This document shows, one piece after another, positions 6,704-30,625 of a stretch of 30,625 bases of DNA. A program made the position numbers and the translations under genes. The stretch lies in assembly GCA_947258805.1 (NCBI GenBank), contig CAMYJV010000054.1, positions 1 through 30,625 of the forward strand, read 5' to 3'. Within the stretch, counting starts at the first letter, position 1; each line of letters starts with the position of its first letter. Under the pieces are notes generated by a model. That model was not told the origin of the DNA. It was given only the letters and a program-made list of their open reading frames with translations, and did no database searches. This DNA comes from an uncultured Gammaproteobacteria bacterium (GTDB lineage Bacteria; Pseudomonadota; Gammaproteobacteria; GCA-2729495).

Positions 6704-9700
6704 TTAAAACTTGCCGTAGTAGCCTTCTTTCAGTGCGTCGAACAGGTTCGCCGCGGTGTGAATCTCGCCGTCGTACTCAACTTCCTGATCACCCCGGGCT
6801 TCGATCTCGGTACCGTCTTCGAGCACGAAAGTGTAGGTGGTGTTTTGCAGATCTTTTTCCTTAACGAGCACGCCCTGGAAGGCTTCCGGGTTGAAGCGGA
6901 AGGTCGTGCACCCTTTCAGCCCTTTTTCGTGGGCATACAGGTAGATGTCCTTGAACTCTTCGTACGGAAACTCCGTGGGCACATTGGCCGTCTTGGAGAT
7001 GGATGAATCCACCCACTTCTGCGCCGCCGCCTGAATTTCTACGTGCTCGGTGGGCGTAATGCCGTCCGCTGTCACAAAGTATTCCGGCAGCTGTTCGCCG
7101 GGCTTGTCGGACTCCGGCATGGCTCGCGTGTTGATCAGTTCGCGGTAGGCCAGCATCTCAAAGGAGTACACGTCCACCTTCTCCTTGGTTTTCCTGCCCT
7201 CGCGAATCACGTTGCGGAAATAGTGGTGCGCAAAGCTCGGCTCTATTCCGTTGCTGGCGTTATTCGCCAGCGACAGGGAGATGGTTCCGGTGGGCGCGAT
7301 GGAACTGTGGTGAGTAAAACGGGCACCCGTCTGCTCCAGCTCTTTGACCAGTTCCGGCGCCACCTCTGCCATGCGCTGCATGTAGCGGCTGTAACGCGCG
7401 TGCAGTACCCGTCCCGGAACCTTGTCGCCCGCCTGCCAGCCGTCGGCCGCCATCTCAGGTCGCCGCCGCAGCATTTCCGGCGTCACCCGGAAATCTTCCA
7501 GCATGATCGGGGCCGCGCCCTTTTCGCGGGCCAGTTCCAGGCCGGTCTCCCAGCCCGCCTGGGCCAGCTCCCTTGCCACGGTTTCCGTGAACTCCACAGA
7601 TGCCGTCGACCCATATTTCATGCGCAGCATCGTAACGGTGGAACCGAGCCCCAGGAAGCCCATGCCGTGGCGCCGCTTGCGGAAGATTTCGTGGCGCTGG
7701 CCTTCCAGTGGCAGCCCGTTGACCTCGACCACGTTGTCGAGCATGCGTGTGAATACTTTCACGACCTTGCGAAAATTATCCCAGTCAAATTGCGCCTTGT
7801 CGGTGAACGGGTCGGCGACGAACTTGGTCAGGTTGACCGAGCCCAGCAGGCACGATCCGTACGGCGGCAAAGGCTGCTCGCCGCAGTTGTGGGCCCAGAT
7901 GCCGTTGGCGTCGAAGGCGTTGATGCCCGGCACCTGGCAGTCATAGACCGCCTCCGAGCCGTCGGCCTCTACTGCCTTGACGCGGGCCACGAAACGTTCC
8001 GTGCCCTGGATTATGGCCGGATGGGTCAACGCGTCTTGCAGCCGCTCGCTGCGTTCGGCATCACTGAAACCGATTAGCTTTGCAAACTGCGCCAGGTTGC
8101 TGGCAGCAATCCACAGGCAGCCCCCCGTGACCGCCGACGACCGCTGGCCGCTGCGCCGGGCCACGATGCCAAGCCGCAGCAGCATGCGCTGGATGCCCGG
8201 CAACGCGTCGTCGCGCACATCCGTATACCGGATCGCAGGCCCGGCGGAGCCTTCTGCGACGAGTTCACCCCGCAGGTCGAAAGCCGCCTTGAGAAAGCCC
8301 CGGTAAAACTCGCTGGAGGTTTTTTCCACGCCCGCCGTCAACGCCGCGGCATCGGCGGCAAGATCCAGCGCCGCGGCTACGCGCCCCAGCCCGGGAACCG
8401 TCAGCTCGCTCTGCCCGGTATCGGTCTGGGCCTGCCAGCCAATGCCGGCAGCATGGGCAACCATGGCCCGCGCGGCGCCCTCGGCGGCACTCCTCAACCG
8501 CTGGGTGCCCGCCGCCACCGGCGCCGTGGACCCGTTAGCCACCGCCGCCGCCTCGCCCAGCCGGATACTGGCATCCGTAGTGGCGATCTGGCCGGCCTCG
8601 CCCCGCAGCAGGCCAAGCAAATAGCCCTCTTCGCGGCCGAAAGCCCCCGGCCAGTGCGCATGCGCGCGGTGGTCGTTCAACAAGACACGGTCGCCCGGGC
8701 GCAGCTCGCCCGCTGCACACCAGTCCGTTTCGGTGGCGTCGGCGTCGAAGCGAACCACGCGGCGCACACGATGATCTTCCGTGAGCCGGAGGCTGCATCC
8801 ACCGGCGGTTTCCAGTCGCACGATGGGCTTGGTGGCCGTCTGGAAAAAGCCCTCCGGCGCGGCGGGCCAGGCCTCGCCGTCCAGCAATGCGGTGAAGGGC
8901 CGGCCCACGAGTTCTGCCACCTGCCGCGGCCCGTCGACTGTCTGCACCCACGTGTCGGCGGTCACGCAAGGATTGGTGGCGCGAATGTTTTCGCAGAACC
9001 AGTTGTTGTTCATCTCGTTCACGCGGTCCACCAGGACGAAACCGGGTTCGGCAAAATCGTAAGTGGAGGCCATAATCATGTCCCACAACCGCCGTGCCGG
9101 CAGCTTGCGGAAAATCTTGCAGGCCACCTGGCCCTGCTCATTGGTCACATAACCGTTCGCGGGCCAGTCGCGCCATAACACCTGTTCAGAATCGTCCAGG
9201 TCGATATCGCTCTGGTCGTACTCGCGCTGGTCGATGGGAAATGCCAGGGCCCACTCGCCGTTGGCCCGCACCGCGTTCACGAAATCGTCGGTGATCAGCA
9301 GCGACAGGTTGAACTGGCGGAGCCGGCCGTCTTCACGCTTGGCGCGGATGAAATCGAGGACATCGGGATGGCCCACGTCGAAGGTGCCCATCTGGGCACC
9401 GCGGCGGCCGCCCGCAGACGACACCGTAAAGCACATCTTGTCGTAGATATCCATGAACGACAGCGGGCCCGAGGTGTAGGCGCCGGCGCCGCTGACGTAA
9501 GCACCCTTCGGGCGCAGCGTCGAGAACTCGTAACCAATGCCGCAACCGGCTTTCAACGTCAGCCCGGCCTCGTGAACCTTGTCCAGGATGTCGTGCATCG
9601 AATCACCGATGATCCCGGAGACCGTGCAGTTGATCGTGGAGGTGGCGGGCTTGTGGTGCCGCGCCCCCGCATTCGACACGATCCGGCCCGCCGGCACCGC

Positions 9701-9931
9701 GCCGCTGCGCAGCGCCCACAGGAACGACTCGAACCACTGCTCGCGTTCAGCCTCCGCTTCGACATCCGCCAACGCCCGGGCCACCCGCTTGTAGGTGTCG
9801 TCCATGGTTTCGTCCACCACGTCACCGGACTTGGACTTAAGCCGGTACTTCGTGTCCCAGATGTCCATGGACGCTTCCTGGAAGCCGATGGCGGAGACCT
9901 TGACCTGACTGACCTGCGCTGCAGTTTTCAT
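6704..9931 (-). CDS. nrdJa: Adenosylcobalamin-dependent ribonucleotide reductase, catalytic subunit NrdJa, containing an intein
   Basis: Catalyses reduction of ribonucleotides to deoxyribonucleotides using coenzyme B12 to generate the thiyl radical; independent of oxygen. The 1075-residue precursor is 714 residues of reductase plus a 361-residue intein. Family landmarks: DIWDTKYRLKSKSG near the start, INCTVSG (redox Cys, about residue 102), KAGCGIGYEFSTLRP, AGGRRGAQMG, ENIRATNP followed after the intein by CGEQPLPPYGSC (catalytic Cys and second redox Cys), and a C-terminus LFDALKEGYYGKF. I chose ATG 9931 because family members have a short extension before DIWD; ATG 9868 has a better ribosome-binding site (AGGA, 7 nt) and is an alternative. 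The open frame to 10114 lacks family similarity and crosses the NrdR box. Its partner subunit NrdJb follows downstream. Confidence 0.95.
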   Translation of the reverse strand: MKTAAQVSQVKVSAIGFQEASMDIWDTKYRLKSKSGDVVDETMDDTYKRVARALADVEAEAEREQWFESFLWALRSGAVPAGRIVSNAGARHHKPATSTINCTVSGIIGDSMHDILDKVHEAGLTLKAGCGIGYEFSTLRPKGAYVSGAGAYTSGPLSFMDIYDKMCFTVSSAGGRRGAQMGTFDVGHPDVLDFIRAKREDGRLRQFNLSLLITDDFVNAVRANGEWALAFPIDQREYDQSDIDLDDSEQVLWRDWPANGYVTNEQGQVACKIFRKLPARRLWDMIMASTYDFAEPGFVLVDRVNEMNNNWFCENIRATNPCVTADTWVQTVDGPRQVAELVGRPFTALLDGEAWPAAPEGFFQTATKPIVRLETAGGCSLRLTEDHRVRRVVRFDADATETDWCAAGELRPGDRVLLNDHRAHAHWPGAFGREEGYLLGLLRGEAGQIATTDASIRLGEAAAVANGSTAPVAAGTQRLRSAAEGAARAMVAHAAGIGWQAQTDTGQSELTVPGLGRVAAALDLAADAAALTAGVEKTSSEFYRGFLKAAFDLRGELVAEGSAGPAIRYTDVRDDALPGIQRMLLRLGIVARRSGQRSSAVTGGCLWIAASNLAQFAKLIGFSDAERSERLQDALTHPAIIQGTERFVARVKAVEADGSEAVYDCQVPGINAFDANGIWAHNCGEQPLPPYGSCLLGSVNLTKFVADPFTDKAQFDWDNFRKVVKVFTRMLDNVVEVNGLPLEGQRHEIFRKRRHGMGFLGLGSTVTMLRMKYGSTASVEFTETVARELAQAGWETGLELAREKGAAPIMLEDFRVTPEMLRRRPEMAADGWQAGDKVPGRVLHARYSRYMQRMAEVAPELVKELEQTGARFTHHSSIAPTGTISLSLANNASNGIEPSFAHHYFRNVIREGRKTKEKVDVYSFEMLAYRELINTRAMPESDKPGEQLPEYFVTADGITPTEHVEIQAAAQKWVDSSISKTANVPTEFPYEEFKDIYLYAHEKGLKGCTTFRFNPEAFQGVLVKEKDLQNTTYTFVLEDGTEIEARGDQEVEYDGEIHTAANLFDALKEGYYGKF
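7886..8968 (-). other. Intein in NrdJa with degenerate LAGLIDADG endonuclease domain
   Basis: An in-frame 361-residue protein-splicing element between exteins ending ATNP and beginning CGEQPL. Splicing residues are all visible: Cys1 (CVTADTWVQTVDG, block A), TEDH at 63-66 (block B), a VYDCQVPGINAFDANG block F at about 341-356, and the terminal HN at 360-361 followed by Cys+1. It should therefore be a class 1 splicing-competent intein. Between the splicing halves lie two LAGLIDADG-like helices: EGYLLGLLRGEAG (114-126) and FYRGFLKAAFDLRG (221-234). In the first the catalytic Asp is replaced by Glu; in the second the penultimate Asp is replaced by Arg. The homing endonuclease is thus probably inactive. 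Base composition resembles the host gene, suggesting long residence. Confidence 0.93.
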
Positions 9932-10052
9932 TGCGACGAAACAACCCCGTATCTGAAGGCGGCCCGGGCCTGCCAAGCCGCGAGTCGCTGCCGTTTTGTC
10001 GGGTTCACCCCTGACCCGTTCCCCTTTTTCAACGGACAGTCGTCCCCTGCAG

Positions 10053-10080
10053 CCACGAGCAACACCCTCGGTCCTCGTGG
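10053..10080 (-). other. Hairpin in the nrdJa leader
   Basis: CCACGAG and CTCGTGG form a 7-bp perfect stem with a 14-nt loop inside the roughly 200-nt leader between the predicted nrdJa transcription start (about 10131) and ATG 9931. No B12-box-like sequence is seen, so I do not call a riboswitch. Confidence 0.35.
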
Positions 10081-10108
10081 CCGATACGACGGTCCTGAAG
10101 AAAATCGC

Positions 10109-10128
10109 CGGCACAAGATATTGTGCCG
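10109..10128 (-). promoter_or_regulatory. NrdR box at the nrdJa transcription start
   Basis: The near-perfect palindrome CGGCACAAGATATTGTGCCG matches the NrdR repressor box pattern (ACAC-A-TATAT-GTGT type). It lies immediately after the -10 element of the nrdJa promoter, covering the predicted start of transcription, where an ATP/dATP-responsive repressor would block initiation. Confidence 0.72.
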
Positions 10129-29108: not shown

Positions 29109-29215
29109 CCCTTTTTGACATAATTCTCGGTCTGGCCACGGCGATTGCCGCAGGCTTGCACGGGCCCTGAAAGCCGCGTAACTTCTACGTCTGAGAATAA
29201 AAATAACGGTCTATA

Positions 29216-29292
29216 AAGGCAGTGTCGGATCCCGATCCACACCCGATGACGCTGCTTTGATCCGCCACTCCTTACGGACCTTGCGTAAGGAG
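29216..29292 (+). promoter_or_regulatory. Structured leader, copy 1: 11-bp stem plus Shine-Dalgarno-sequestering hairpin
   Basis: Stem P1: AAGGCAGTGTC (29216-29226) pairs along all 11 positions (two G-U) with GACGCTGCTTT (29248-29258). It encloses a small hairpin GGAT-CCCG-ATCC (29227-29238). Downstream, CTCCTTACG (29268-29276) is perfectly complementary to CGTAAGGAG (29284-29292), which contains the Shine-Dalgarno TAAGGAG of the esterase gene. GATCC at 29259-29263 could alternatively pair with GGATC at 29227, giving a possible switch. Copy 2 lies at 30342-30419. Confidence 0.65.
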
Positions 29293-29299
29293 CAAGACC

Positions 29300-30283
29300 A
29301 TGAAGTTCTCCCTGACCCGGCTTGGACTATTCGCCGCGGTTTACCTGTGGGCGGCCGTTGCGTCGGCAGCGGGCCTCGCGCCCATATCCCAGGTTTTCGT
29401 ATTTGGCGACAGCCTGTCGGACACTGGCAATGCGTTCAACGCCACAGGCGGTGCGTTGCCGCCCTCGCCGCCCTATTTCGCGGGTCGCGTCACGAACGGT
29501 TTGATCTGGGTCGAGCCCATGAGCAGCGACCTGGGTGTGTCGTTCACCAACTACGCCGTTGCCGGCGCACAGACTGGCAATGGCAACGTCAACTCCGACA
29601 ATTTTCCAGTGCTGGAAGACACTGGTCTGCAAAACCAGGTGACACAGTTCGGATCCGACCTCGGCGGCGTTACGGCCGATCCGGGTGCGCTCTACGTCGT
29701 GTTCGCCGGTTCGAATAATTTTTGCCTCACGTGCTTCACGCCCGGCGTGGACGATCCCATTGCGTTCATCAACCAGGGCGTCACGGAGATCCTGACGGCT
29801 GTCGGTACCTTACAAGCCACCGGGGCACAGAAGTTCCTGGTGTTCGGCCTGCCCGACCTCGGCCTGAGCCCGCGAGCGGCGGCCATCCCGATCCCGGGCA
29901 TCCAGGAACAGCTCAGCATGCTGACGGACGGCTGGAACCAGGCCCTGTTCGGCAACCTGCCCAGCCTCGGCCTCGGCGACAACCTGGCAACGGTGGACAC
30001 CGCCCAGGTACTGCGGGACGTCGTTGCCGACCCGGCGAGTTTCGGCTTGTTCAATGTGACGGACCCTTGCCTGCTGGTTGGCTGCAACGCGCAGACGAAG
30101 GACCCGCTGCTGGACCCGGACGGCTTCCTGTTTTGGGACGACATTCATCCGACGCGTGCTGGCCACGCAATCCTGGCGGATGCCGCTTATCACGCAGTGC
30201 TGATCCCGGTACCGCCGGCGGCACTGCTGTTTGGTTCAGCCTTGGGCTTGCTCGGGTGGGTACGCCGCCGCGCGGCAGCCTGA
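29300..30283 (+). CDS. Secreted GDSL/SGNH esterase with PEP-CTERM-type sorting tail
   Basis: 327 residues. Signal peptide MKFSLTRLGLFAAVYLWAAVASA; then the SGNH blocks: FGDSLSDTGN (block I, nucleophile Ser), NYAVAGAQTG (block II Gly), VVFAGSNNF (block III Asn), and WDDIHPTRAGH (block V Asp and His), so a lipase, phospholipase or carbohydrate-esterase activity is expected. The C-terminus IPVPPAALLFGSALGLLGWVRRR is a PEP-CTERM-like signal (Pro motif, hydrophobic helix, Arg cluster) for exosortase processing and surface or matrix delivery; no exosortase is in the window. The start is set by a consensus TAAGGAG 7 nt upstream, which is hidden in a hairpin. Substrate unknown. Confidence 0.88.
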   Translation: MKFSLTRLGLFAAVYLWAAVASAAGLAPISQVFVFGDSLSDTGNAFNATGGALPPSPPYFAGRVTNGLIWVEPMSSDLGVSFTNYAVAGAQTGNGNVNSDNFPVLEDTGLQNQVTQFGSDLGGVTADPGALYVVFAGSNNFCLTCFTPGVDDPIAFINQGVTEILTAVGTLQATGAQKFLVFGLPDLGLSPRAAAIPIPGIQEQLSMLTDGWNQALFGNLPSLGLGDNLATVDTAQVLRDVVADPASFGLFNVTDPCLLVGCNAQTKDPLLDPDGFLFWDDIHPTRAGHAILADAAYHAVLIPVPPAALLFGSALGLLGWVRRRAAA

Positions 30284-30341
30284 GCATTTTAGAGACAAAG
30301 AAGAGAATAGAGACGCTTTTGACTTGAGTAACTGGTCGACG

Positions 30342-30419
30342 AAGGCAGTGTCGGATCTCGATCCACACCCGATGACGCTGCTTTGATCCGCCACTCCTTG
30401 CGACCCCGGTAGTAAGGAG
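30342..30419 (+). promoter_or_regulatory. Structured leader, copy 2
   Basis: P1 arms 30342-30352 and 30374-30384 are identical to copy 1; the inner hairpin GGAT-CTCG-ATCC differs by one loop base. The Shine-Dalgarno hairpin is CTCCTTGC (30394-30401) with GTAAGGAG (30412-30419): one A-U pair of copy 1 has become G-U, while the loop sequence differs completely. Ribosome-binding-site to ATG spacing (7 nt) is the same. Confidence 0.65.
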
Positions 30420-30426
30420 ACCGACC

Positions 30427-30625
30427 ATGAAGTTCGTCATGCCCCGAATGGGGGTATTGGCTGCGATCTGTTGCTGGGCCAGCGCCGCGCACGCTGCCGG
30501 CATCCCCCCCGTCGCGAGCGACGGCGGCAGCCATGGGGCCGCTGACAAGCCGTATCTGGCGGCCCACGGAACACCAGTGGGGCAGCAACGCGCTCAGCTC
30601 GTGGCAATACCTGCGTCTGCTGATT
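30427..30625 (+). CDS. Second secreted protein with a related signal peptide, 5' end only
   Basis: Open to the window end. The signal peptide MKFVMPRMGVLAAICCWASAAHA resembles that of the upstream esterase (both MKF...AA...A-AG), and the gene carries the same leader, so the pair may be paralogous at least in their 5' ends. After AGIPPV the text no longer resembles FVFGDSLSD. The following frame is less codon-typical than the +1 frame, which reads MGPLTSRIWRPTEHQWG and SNALSSWQYLRLLI; a run of seven C (about 30506-30512) could be the slip point. Product not identifiable from this fragment. Confidence 0.6.
   Translation, partial: MKFVMPRMGVLAAICCWASAAHAAGIPPVASDGGSHGAADKPYLAAHGTPVGQQRAQLVAIPASAD

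Follow-up and report, generated by a model that had tools for sequence, protein, structure and literature searches.

A duplicated leader of two exported-protein genes and a possible base-pairing RNA circuit for PEP-CTERM surface proteins

Introduction

What is the role of a leader that stands, almost letter for letter, ahead of two neighbouring genes for exported proteins? The question arises near the end of the window, by which we mean the whole 30,625-nt stretch of gammaproteobacterial DNA analyzed here. A direct repeat of 69 nt, its copies 93% identical, lies at 29208-29276 and 30334-30402, and the two leader copies are 1,126 nt apart. We regard it as an evenly balanced proposition that the leaders are targets of a base-pairing RNA circuit serving PEP-CTERM (exosortase-sorted) surface proteins. 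The features of the locus, all on the plus strand, are as follows.

29208-29299, +: leader copy 1, GGTC clamp through the last base ahead of the start codon (repeat, fold and alignment)
29216-29273, +: invariant core of copy 1 (four-copy alignment)
29216-29231, +: 5' switching arm AAGGCAGTGTCGGATC of copy 1, its alternative predicted partners being the box region (OFF) and 29259-29273 (ON)
29242-29252, +: 11-nt box CCCGATGACGC of copy 1, complement of array hairpin loops in relatives
29246-29260, +: possible tiny upstream frame ATG ACG CTG CTT TGA within the core (a rival reading)
29259-29273, +: strand GATCCGCCACTCCTT of copy 1, the predicted ON-fold partner of the 5' arm; CTCCTT within it is the anti-Shine-Dalgarno
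29287-29292, +: Shine-Dalgarno AAGGAG of copy 1, masked by 29268-29276 in the predicted OFF fold
29300-30283, +: gene for a GDSL esterase/lipase of 327 aa with a PEP-CTERM-like tail VPPAALLFGSALGLLGWVRRR (PF00657 match)
30334-30426, +: leader copy 2, GGTC clamp through the last base ahead of the start codon (repeat, fold and alignment)
30342-30399, +: invariant core of copy 2 (5' arm 30342-30357, ON-fold partner 30385-30399)
30368-30378, +: box CCCGATGACGC of copy 2, complement of array loops
30414-30419, +: Shine-Dalgarno AAGGAG of the second gene, masked by 30394-30401 in the predicted OFF fold
30427-30625, +: second exported-protein gene, truncated by the end of the window

Conservation of the leaders

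Both leaders recur ahead of the same two genes in CP070671.1, the metagenome-assembled genome Chromatiales bacterium bin74 (G001, locus L003). Aligned with their counterparts there, the two window copies yield 57 invariant columns out of 58 (29216-29273), the sole variable one being C/T at 29232/30358, and the near identity of the copies reported in the original prediction thus stands. A 49-nt core pattern allowing up to three mismatches finds exactly these two sites in the window and none in 100 shuffles. Among 99 relatives, the 58-nt core has a match below E 0.002 in CP070671.1 only. An exact pattern scan of one genome per species (84,980 species) returned nine stretches, of which L003 alone resembles the window.

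The coding regions just behind the leaders had been described as sharing only a loose signal-peptide pattern, but the proteins are related. In CP070671.1 the counterpart of the truncated second gene encodes 201 aa ending in a PEP-CTERM-like tail, and it overlaps a stretch that matches the GDSL protein of the window, residues 183-326, with 45% identity; because of this match, the second gene looks like a shortened GDSL paralogue. Two tandem paralogues invite the reading that the repeat is a mere leftover of recent tandem duplication or gene conversion, with no regulation attached. Tandem duplication does account for the presence of two copies, but not for a core that stands still between species: it is identical in two species that are about 19% apart in the DNA around it (81.4% identity over 2,457 nt), and a part of it recurs before other PEP-CTERM genes. 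As the two-species comparison already disfavours it, we hold this reading to be highly improbable. Outside the core, two pairs have changed on both sides: U-A has become G-C in the outer clamp, and G-C has become A-U in the hairpin covering the Shine-Dalgarno.

No Rfam family matches the window leaders at gathering score. A search of 29110-30500 at E values up to 5 gave two chance-level matches, both outside the leaders. Sequence comparison therefore supports a structured leader, conserved well above its surroundings in two species, as a candidate cis-regulatory RNA. The claim of a selected new element is partly supported, by the conservation in two species, the lack of an Rfam match and an element shared with other PEP-CTERM genes, but this shared part turned out to be an 11-nt box and not the stem or hairpin.

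Two further observations were made elsewhere in the window. The plus-strand segment 28036-28066 resembles the 5' half of a tRNA (TTAGCTCAGTTGGTTAGAGC); it lies at a break in the alignment with CP070671.1 and has no Rfam match at gathering score. On the minus strand at 6704-10114, a ribonucleotide-reductase-like frame of 1,136 aa has an apparent intein insert, judged by eye (CVTADTWV ... IWAHNC).

Predicted folds

The leader was originally drawn as an 11-bp stem enclosing a GGAT/ATCC hairpin. The stem is indeed predicted in both window copies, while only copy 1 has the hairpin in its minimum-energy fold and copy 2 favours a different inner pairing. The stem is invariant in the four copies, and so covariation speaks neither for nor against it. 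In the predicted fold each leader continues into a further hairpin, by which the Shine-Dalgarno is masked (CTCCTTAC/GTAAGGAG; 29268-29292 and 30394-30419).

A second arrangement is suggested by the 5' arm AAGGCAGUGUCGGAUC, which has two mutually exclusive predicted partners, the box region (-16.7 kcal/mol) and GAUCCGCCACUCCUU (-17.8 kcal/mol). Dinucleotide shuffles gave an equally good arm-box stem in 67 of 1000 cases, so that its energy is not unusual, and an equally good ON helix in 18 of 1000. The arm-box stem has no covariation across the four copies. The edges of the invariant core coincide with the ends of the second (ON) helix. When the fold is taken as far as the last base of the anti-Shine-Dalgarno strand, the two predicted states are close in energy, at -16.5 and -15.2 kcal/mol in window copy 1 and at -16.6 and -16.5 in the other three.

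In the predicted fold of the whole core the Shine-Dalgarno is hidden. When the pairs of the box are forbidden in silico, at a cost of 6.8-7.9 kcal/mol, the minimum-energy fold flips in all four cores and the pairing of the Shine-Dalgarno falls to 0.31-0.65. The outcome depends on the ends of the transcript: with the GGTC flank included, Shine-Dalgarno pairing is 0.07 and 0.18 in the second copies, a clear predicted switch, and 0.83 and 0.87 in the first copies, where the switch is weak. A -10-like TATAAA lies at 29212-29217, and the orthologous CP070671.1 site scores 7.1 against 5.4 ± 2.2 for shuffles. If this were a real promoter, copy 1 would start near 29224 and its 5' arm would be cut; folds from this putative start have no switch, the Shine-Dalgarno being 0.88-0.93 paired in all four.

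A box shared by PEP-CTERM genes

The stem pattern GTGTC-N-CGATGACGC was discarded as the common feature, matching 84 of 99 genomes and mostly coding sequence where examined, although it led to the box. The word CCGATGACGC stands upstream of GDSL relatives in two genomes. PEP-CTERM genes were then picked with the TIGR03370 model and words were counted de novo in their upstream regions. For the genomes sampled, the number of regions taken and of model matches was 16 of 20 in G001, 9 of 10 in G002, 17 of 26 in G003 (plus L164, picked for having the box), 16 of 27 in G004, 11 of 16 in G005, 10 of 21 in G006, 20 of 37 in G010, 10 of 29 in G014 and 7 of 9 in G017.

The top 8-mer in G001 is GATGACGC, found in 13 of the 16 regions, the best unrelated word reaching 8. 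It is again the top word in G010, outside the training set (10/20), and in G003 (7/18, including the region chosen for the box); in G004 it is absent from the top words in the gene direction. The original prediction had asked whether the element precedes PEP-CTERM genes in relatives, and the box does so in these 13 regions of G001 and 10 of G010. G002 has it in 7 of 9 examined PEP-CTERM regions, and the share is low in G005 (2/11), G006 (1/10) and G014 (2/10); none was seen at the four loci examined in G044. Of the 117 sampled regions of the nine genomes, with three array loci set aside, 49 contain GATGACGC in the gene direction and 2 in the opposite one. The regions hold some coding sequence, and a few of the counted sites (e.g., L166, L280 and L290) are probably at or in frames. 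A profile trained on G001 approximates CCCGATGACGCA[AC].

Genome-wide, G001 has 42 sites of CCGATGACGC, and 3 of the reversed word. On manual reading, 15 of these sites stand before genes with a PEP-CTERM tail, 6 in a hairpin array, 16 inside reading frames or where one starts, and 5 in other non-coding positions. What the window leaders have in common with other genes is thus the 11-nt box CCCGATGACGC and includes neither the 11-bp stem nor the GGAT/ATCC hairpin. A role for the box as a general anti-Shine-Dalgarno element was rejected, since box-to-RBS complementarity passed p < 0.05 in 4 of 34 leaders, about what chance would give. Many box leaders have neither a terminator nor an evident switch.

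Could the box instead mark the beginning of a small upstream frame (ATG ACG CAN), with a ribosome on that frame opening the hairpin behind it? In the window such a frame, MTLL (29246-29260), stops 7 nt ahead of the anti-Shine-Dalgarno arm, and where the box has ATG, four low-scoring variants of it (L142, L255, L248 and L265) have TTG or GTG. However, no Shine-Dalgarno is seen by eye ahead of the ATG, the peptides are dissimilar beyond the box, and both the conserved CC before the ATG and the complementary arrays described below would be left unexplained. We therefore consider this reading of the box improbable.

Several observations made among the box sites deserve mention in their own right. 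Rfam searches of the other leaders gave c-di-GMP-I cases, a tRNA and otherwise weak matches. The PEP-CTERM-like leader at L208 (minus strand, 1453-1577; G001 near 1817840) has a c-di-GMP-I-GGC-like riboswitch scoring 32.5 bits, below the gathering score of 59, and its P3 insert contains the box CCCGATGACGCAAC and GTGGGAAG. A c-di-GMP-I riboswitch of 74.4 bits lies in L135 (plus strand, 368-453) on the strand opposite a G001 PEP-CTERM gene. A second element, [GT]GGGAAG, lies downstream of the box, at most 160 nt away, at 10 of 48 sites (L130, L135, L139, L147, L157, L158, L341, L342, L344 and L346) and is found in none of the upstream control stretches. L221 and L222 of G001 are non-coding box sites, both with GTGGGAAG and with no PEP-CTERM-tailed gene seen behind; L222 also has a GGACGGTCGTCC hairpin. 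Finally, L202 (plus strand, G001 near 1431742) is a lone hairpin with GCGTCATC in its loop, off the array and not before a PEP-CTERM gene.

Terminator-like leaders

In a class of box leaders the box is built into a second kind of structure. In 11 of 53 leaders, by an automatic test, GACGC of the box forms the 5' base of a hairpin with a T-run behind it, against a mean of 0.35 and a maximum of 3 in 60 shuffled sets; nine motif rows judged coding or weak had been removed before this and the anti-Shine-Dalgarno counts, and six G001 leaders found by the box (L199, L201, L208, L218, L221 and L222) had been added to the terminator count. The pattern GATGACGC-N-GCGTN-T5 has ten matches in G001 and none for its control there, and in 368 other genomes of the class it has four scattered matches against one for the control. 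One of the ten, L305, has no recognisable PEP-CTERM gene behind it. Three more terminator leaders come from G002, with different stem sequences. L136 contains two units in tandem, while in L144 and L130 a unit is followed by a second box. When the box is blocked in silico, the base of the stem is shortened in all 16 attenuator leaders chosen, and the mean energy rises from -19.9 to -12.2 kcal/mol. The window leaders have no T-run and are hence unlike these.

Hairpin arrays carrying the complement of the box

If the box is a target, what would recognise it? Arrays of three to six hairpins whose loops hold its complement GCGUCAUCGGG are present in five related genomes, G001-G005, all of which also have the box. 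Six of the 42 box sites of G001 make up its array, with spacings of 112, 225, 107, 112 and 225. Read on the strand of a neighbouring CopG-like gene, each G001 unit is a long hairpin with the box complement in the loop. It is this strand that folds better, in 6 of 6 units of G001 and in 8 of 10 units of the G003, G004 and G005 arrays.

A covariance model built from 16 units was searched against 196 relatives. It returned the arrays of G001-G005, including units that were not part of the input (three in G002 and the fourth in G003), and one weak single match in G035. Because the search applied strict filters and scored few candidates per genome, the absence of arrays elsewhere is not firm. G010 and G017 have box leaders and no convincing array (best E 1.09, and none, respectively). 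Applied to the window, the array model (R1) gave five weak matches with E at least 0.045, two of which are the leaders read backwards. Rfam searches of the five array loci reached a best E of 0.35, all matches being far below gathering scores.

In the 20 units collected, 92.3% of cells are paired and 13 of 17 pairs have changed on both sides. None of 500 shuffles pairs as well, and slid structures pair at 28-47%. G-U outnumbers A-C in the stems, 38 cells to 5, which fits an RNA of the strand carrying the complement. GCGTCATCGGG is present in all 20 loops. The base that follows is mostly T, the complement of the common GCA leaders; in one G001 unit and one G004 unit it is A, the complement of GCT leaders such as those of the window, so a loop reading AGCGUCAUCGGG would match the window form of the box, CCCGAUGACGCU. 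We took as the mark of a trans-acting base-pairing RNA that structured units expose the complement of their target, and all 20 do so in their loops. A complementary RNA is the likely input to the leaders.

The array follows a gene resembling CopG/ribbon-helix-helix proteins in G001, G002, G003 and G005; no such frame was seen in the array stretch of G004. Behind the array of G003, G004 and G005 comes a PEP-CTERM-tailed gene. The CopG-like protein had 40 relatives in a search, one of them named as CopG family, and no Pfam or NCBIfam match above cut-off; a PutA RHH match is among three marginal ones. Its structure model is mostly helical, with a mean pLDDT of 77. No relative of this protein is encoded within the window.

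A DNA-binding regulator, possibly this very protein beside the arrays, might alternatively recognise the box as a DNA site near the start of transcription. Putative -10 elements, searched for with approximate sigma-70 matrices, cluster 6-9 nt (8/35) and 18-20 nt (10/35) upstream of the box, about one helical turn apart, and this clustering suggests that the box is probably near the transcript start. Promoter matches are, however, on average just slightly above shuffles (mean z 1.1). No column from -60 to -3 is conserved, and the box is therefore not half of a fixed promoter pair. It lacks symmetry and almost always points the same way as the gene, and the inverted repeats of the arrays covary and carry the excess of G-U over A-C that is a mark of RNA. 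On this evidence a DNA site is unlikely, if less so than the upstream frame.

A possible circuit

How might array and leader act together? The leader transcript would display the box as CCCGAUGACGC, and a second RNA, from the hairpin array, would show the exact complement in its loops. In the predicted OFF state of the window leaders, the 5' arm would lie on the box region while CUCCUU masks the Shine-Dalgarno. Were a hairpin loop to take the box, the arm would be freed to capture its downstream partner, and the Shine-Dalgarno would be exposed. In the terminator leaders the same pairing would prevent termination, as the box is the 5' base of the terminator-like hairpin. The loop-box duplexes are predicted at -24.4 to -28.5 kcal/mol, values exclusive of the cost of pairing from within a hairpin loop.

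The same pairing could carry another sign or direction: the loops may repress or destabilise PEP-CTERM messages, or the array may be a sponge for short leader RNAs from the attenuators. Complementarity and covariation are silent on direction, and terminated leaders would be short RNAs, about 40-60 nt in length and starting close to the box, as a sponge would have it. Against this, blocking the box shortens the terminator stem in all 16 chosen leaders and opens the Shine-Dalgarno in the window cores, and both effects suggest activation. We judge a different sign or direction unlikely, though the strongest of the alternatives considered here.

The preferred reading, activation through the box, can be extended to an undescribed regulon. 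An antisense hairpin array, mostly behind a CopG-like gene, would switch on many surface-protein messages through the shared 11-nt box, and its outputs would be intrinsic-terminator leaders and a bistable Shine-Dalgarno switch, a natural toehold-type riboregulator, with the two genes of the window included. Our confidence in this fuller proposal is tentative and falls a little short of even. The sequences show the repeat and its constancy in two species, the box ahead of many PEP-CTERM genes, the terminator arrangement, covarying arrays with complementary loops in the genomes that have the box, and two alternative predicted folds; from these we infer the expression of arrays and leaders, their pairing in cells, the activating sign and the presence of an array in the window's own genome.

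Relation to known systems

CsrB/RsmZ-type RNAs have loops that copy an mRNA site and thereby titrate a protein. The arrays share with them repeated hairpins with an invariant loop, but here the loop is the complement of the mRNA site. In the case of rpoS with DsrA, and in synthetic toehold switches, a hidden Shine-Dalgarno is likewise uncovered when an RNA acting in trans pairs with the leader at the 5' end. What would differ here is one box per regulon, two outputs (translation and a terminator) and a trigger array behind a CopG-like gene.

LhrC of Listeria, as described in one paper (PMC4132741), is likewise a multicopy base-pairing RNA that acts on the message of a cell-surface protein; there it uses CU-rich sites and impedes lapB translation. 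The arrays differ in having one long hairpin per unit, an 11-nt loop match, a box common to many messages and a predicted activation.

For PEP-CTERM genes themselves, control by sigma-54/PrsR is described in passages of Haft et al. (2006; PMC1569441), according to which many PEP-CTERM upstream regions fall outside its class, and in those of a 2023 paper on an RpoN-dependent PEP-CTERM gene. The PrsR/sigma-54 motifs resemble the box in being a cis element common to many PEP-CTERM genes of one genome. They consist, however, of a pair of DNA motifs separated by about 63 nt, with a -24/-12 promoter (passages of PMC1569441), whereas the element described here is 11 nt long and near the transcript start. 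The box was rejected as a part of that system: not one of 51 PEP-CTERM upstream regions, the G001 leader copies included, matches the strict -24/-12 pattern. PrsR is above cut-off in 8 of 9 genomes, so that the two systems may coexist. Antitermination by an RfaH/LoaP-like NusG paralogue was also rejected, since 8 of 9 genomes have one NusG domain gene and G010 has two. No paper on such a circuit is among the matches listed for RNA control of PEP-CTERM genes or for the box sequence.

PEP-CTERM proteins have been tied to exopolysaccharide and floc formation, and their regulation is described, in passages of two papers, as a sigma-54 system. If the proposed circuit is true, an RNA layer would explain how many unlinked genes are raised jointly, and it would amount to a regulon with one target box and two outputs, a natural and evolution-tested riboregulator.
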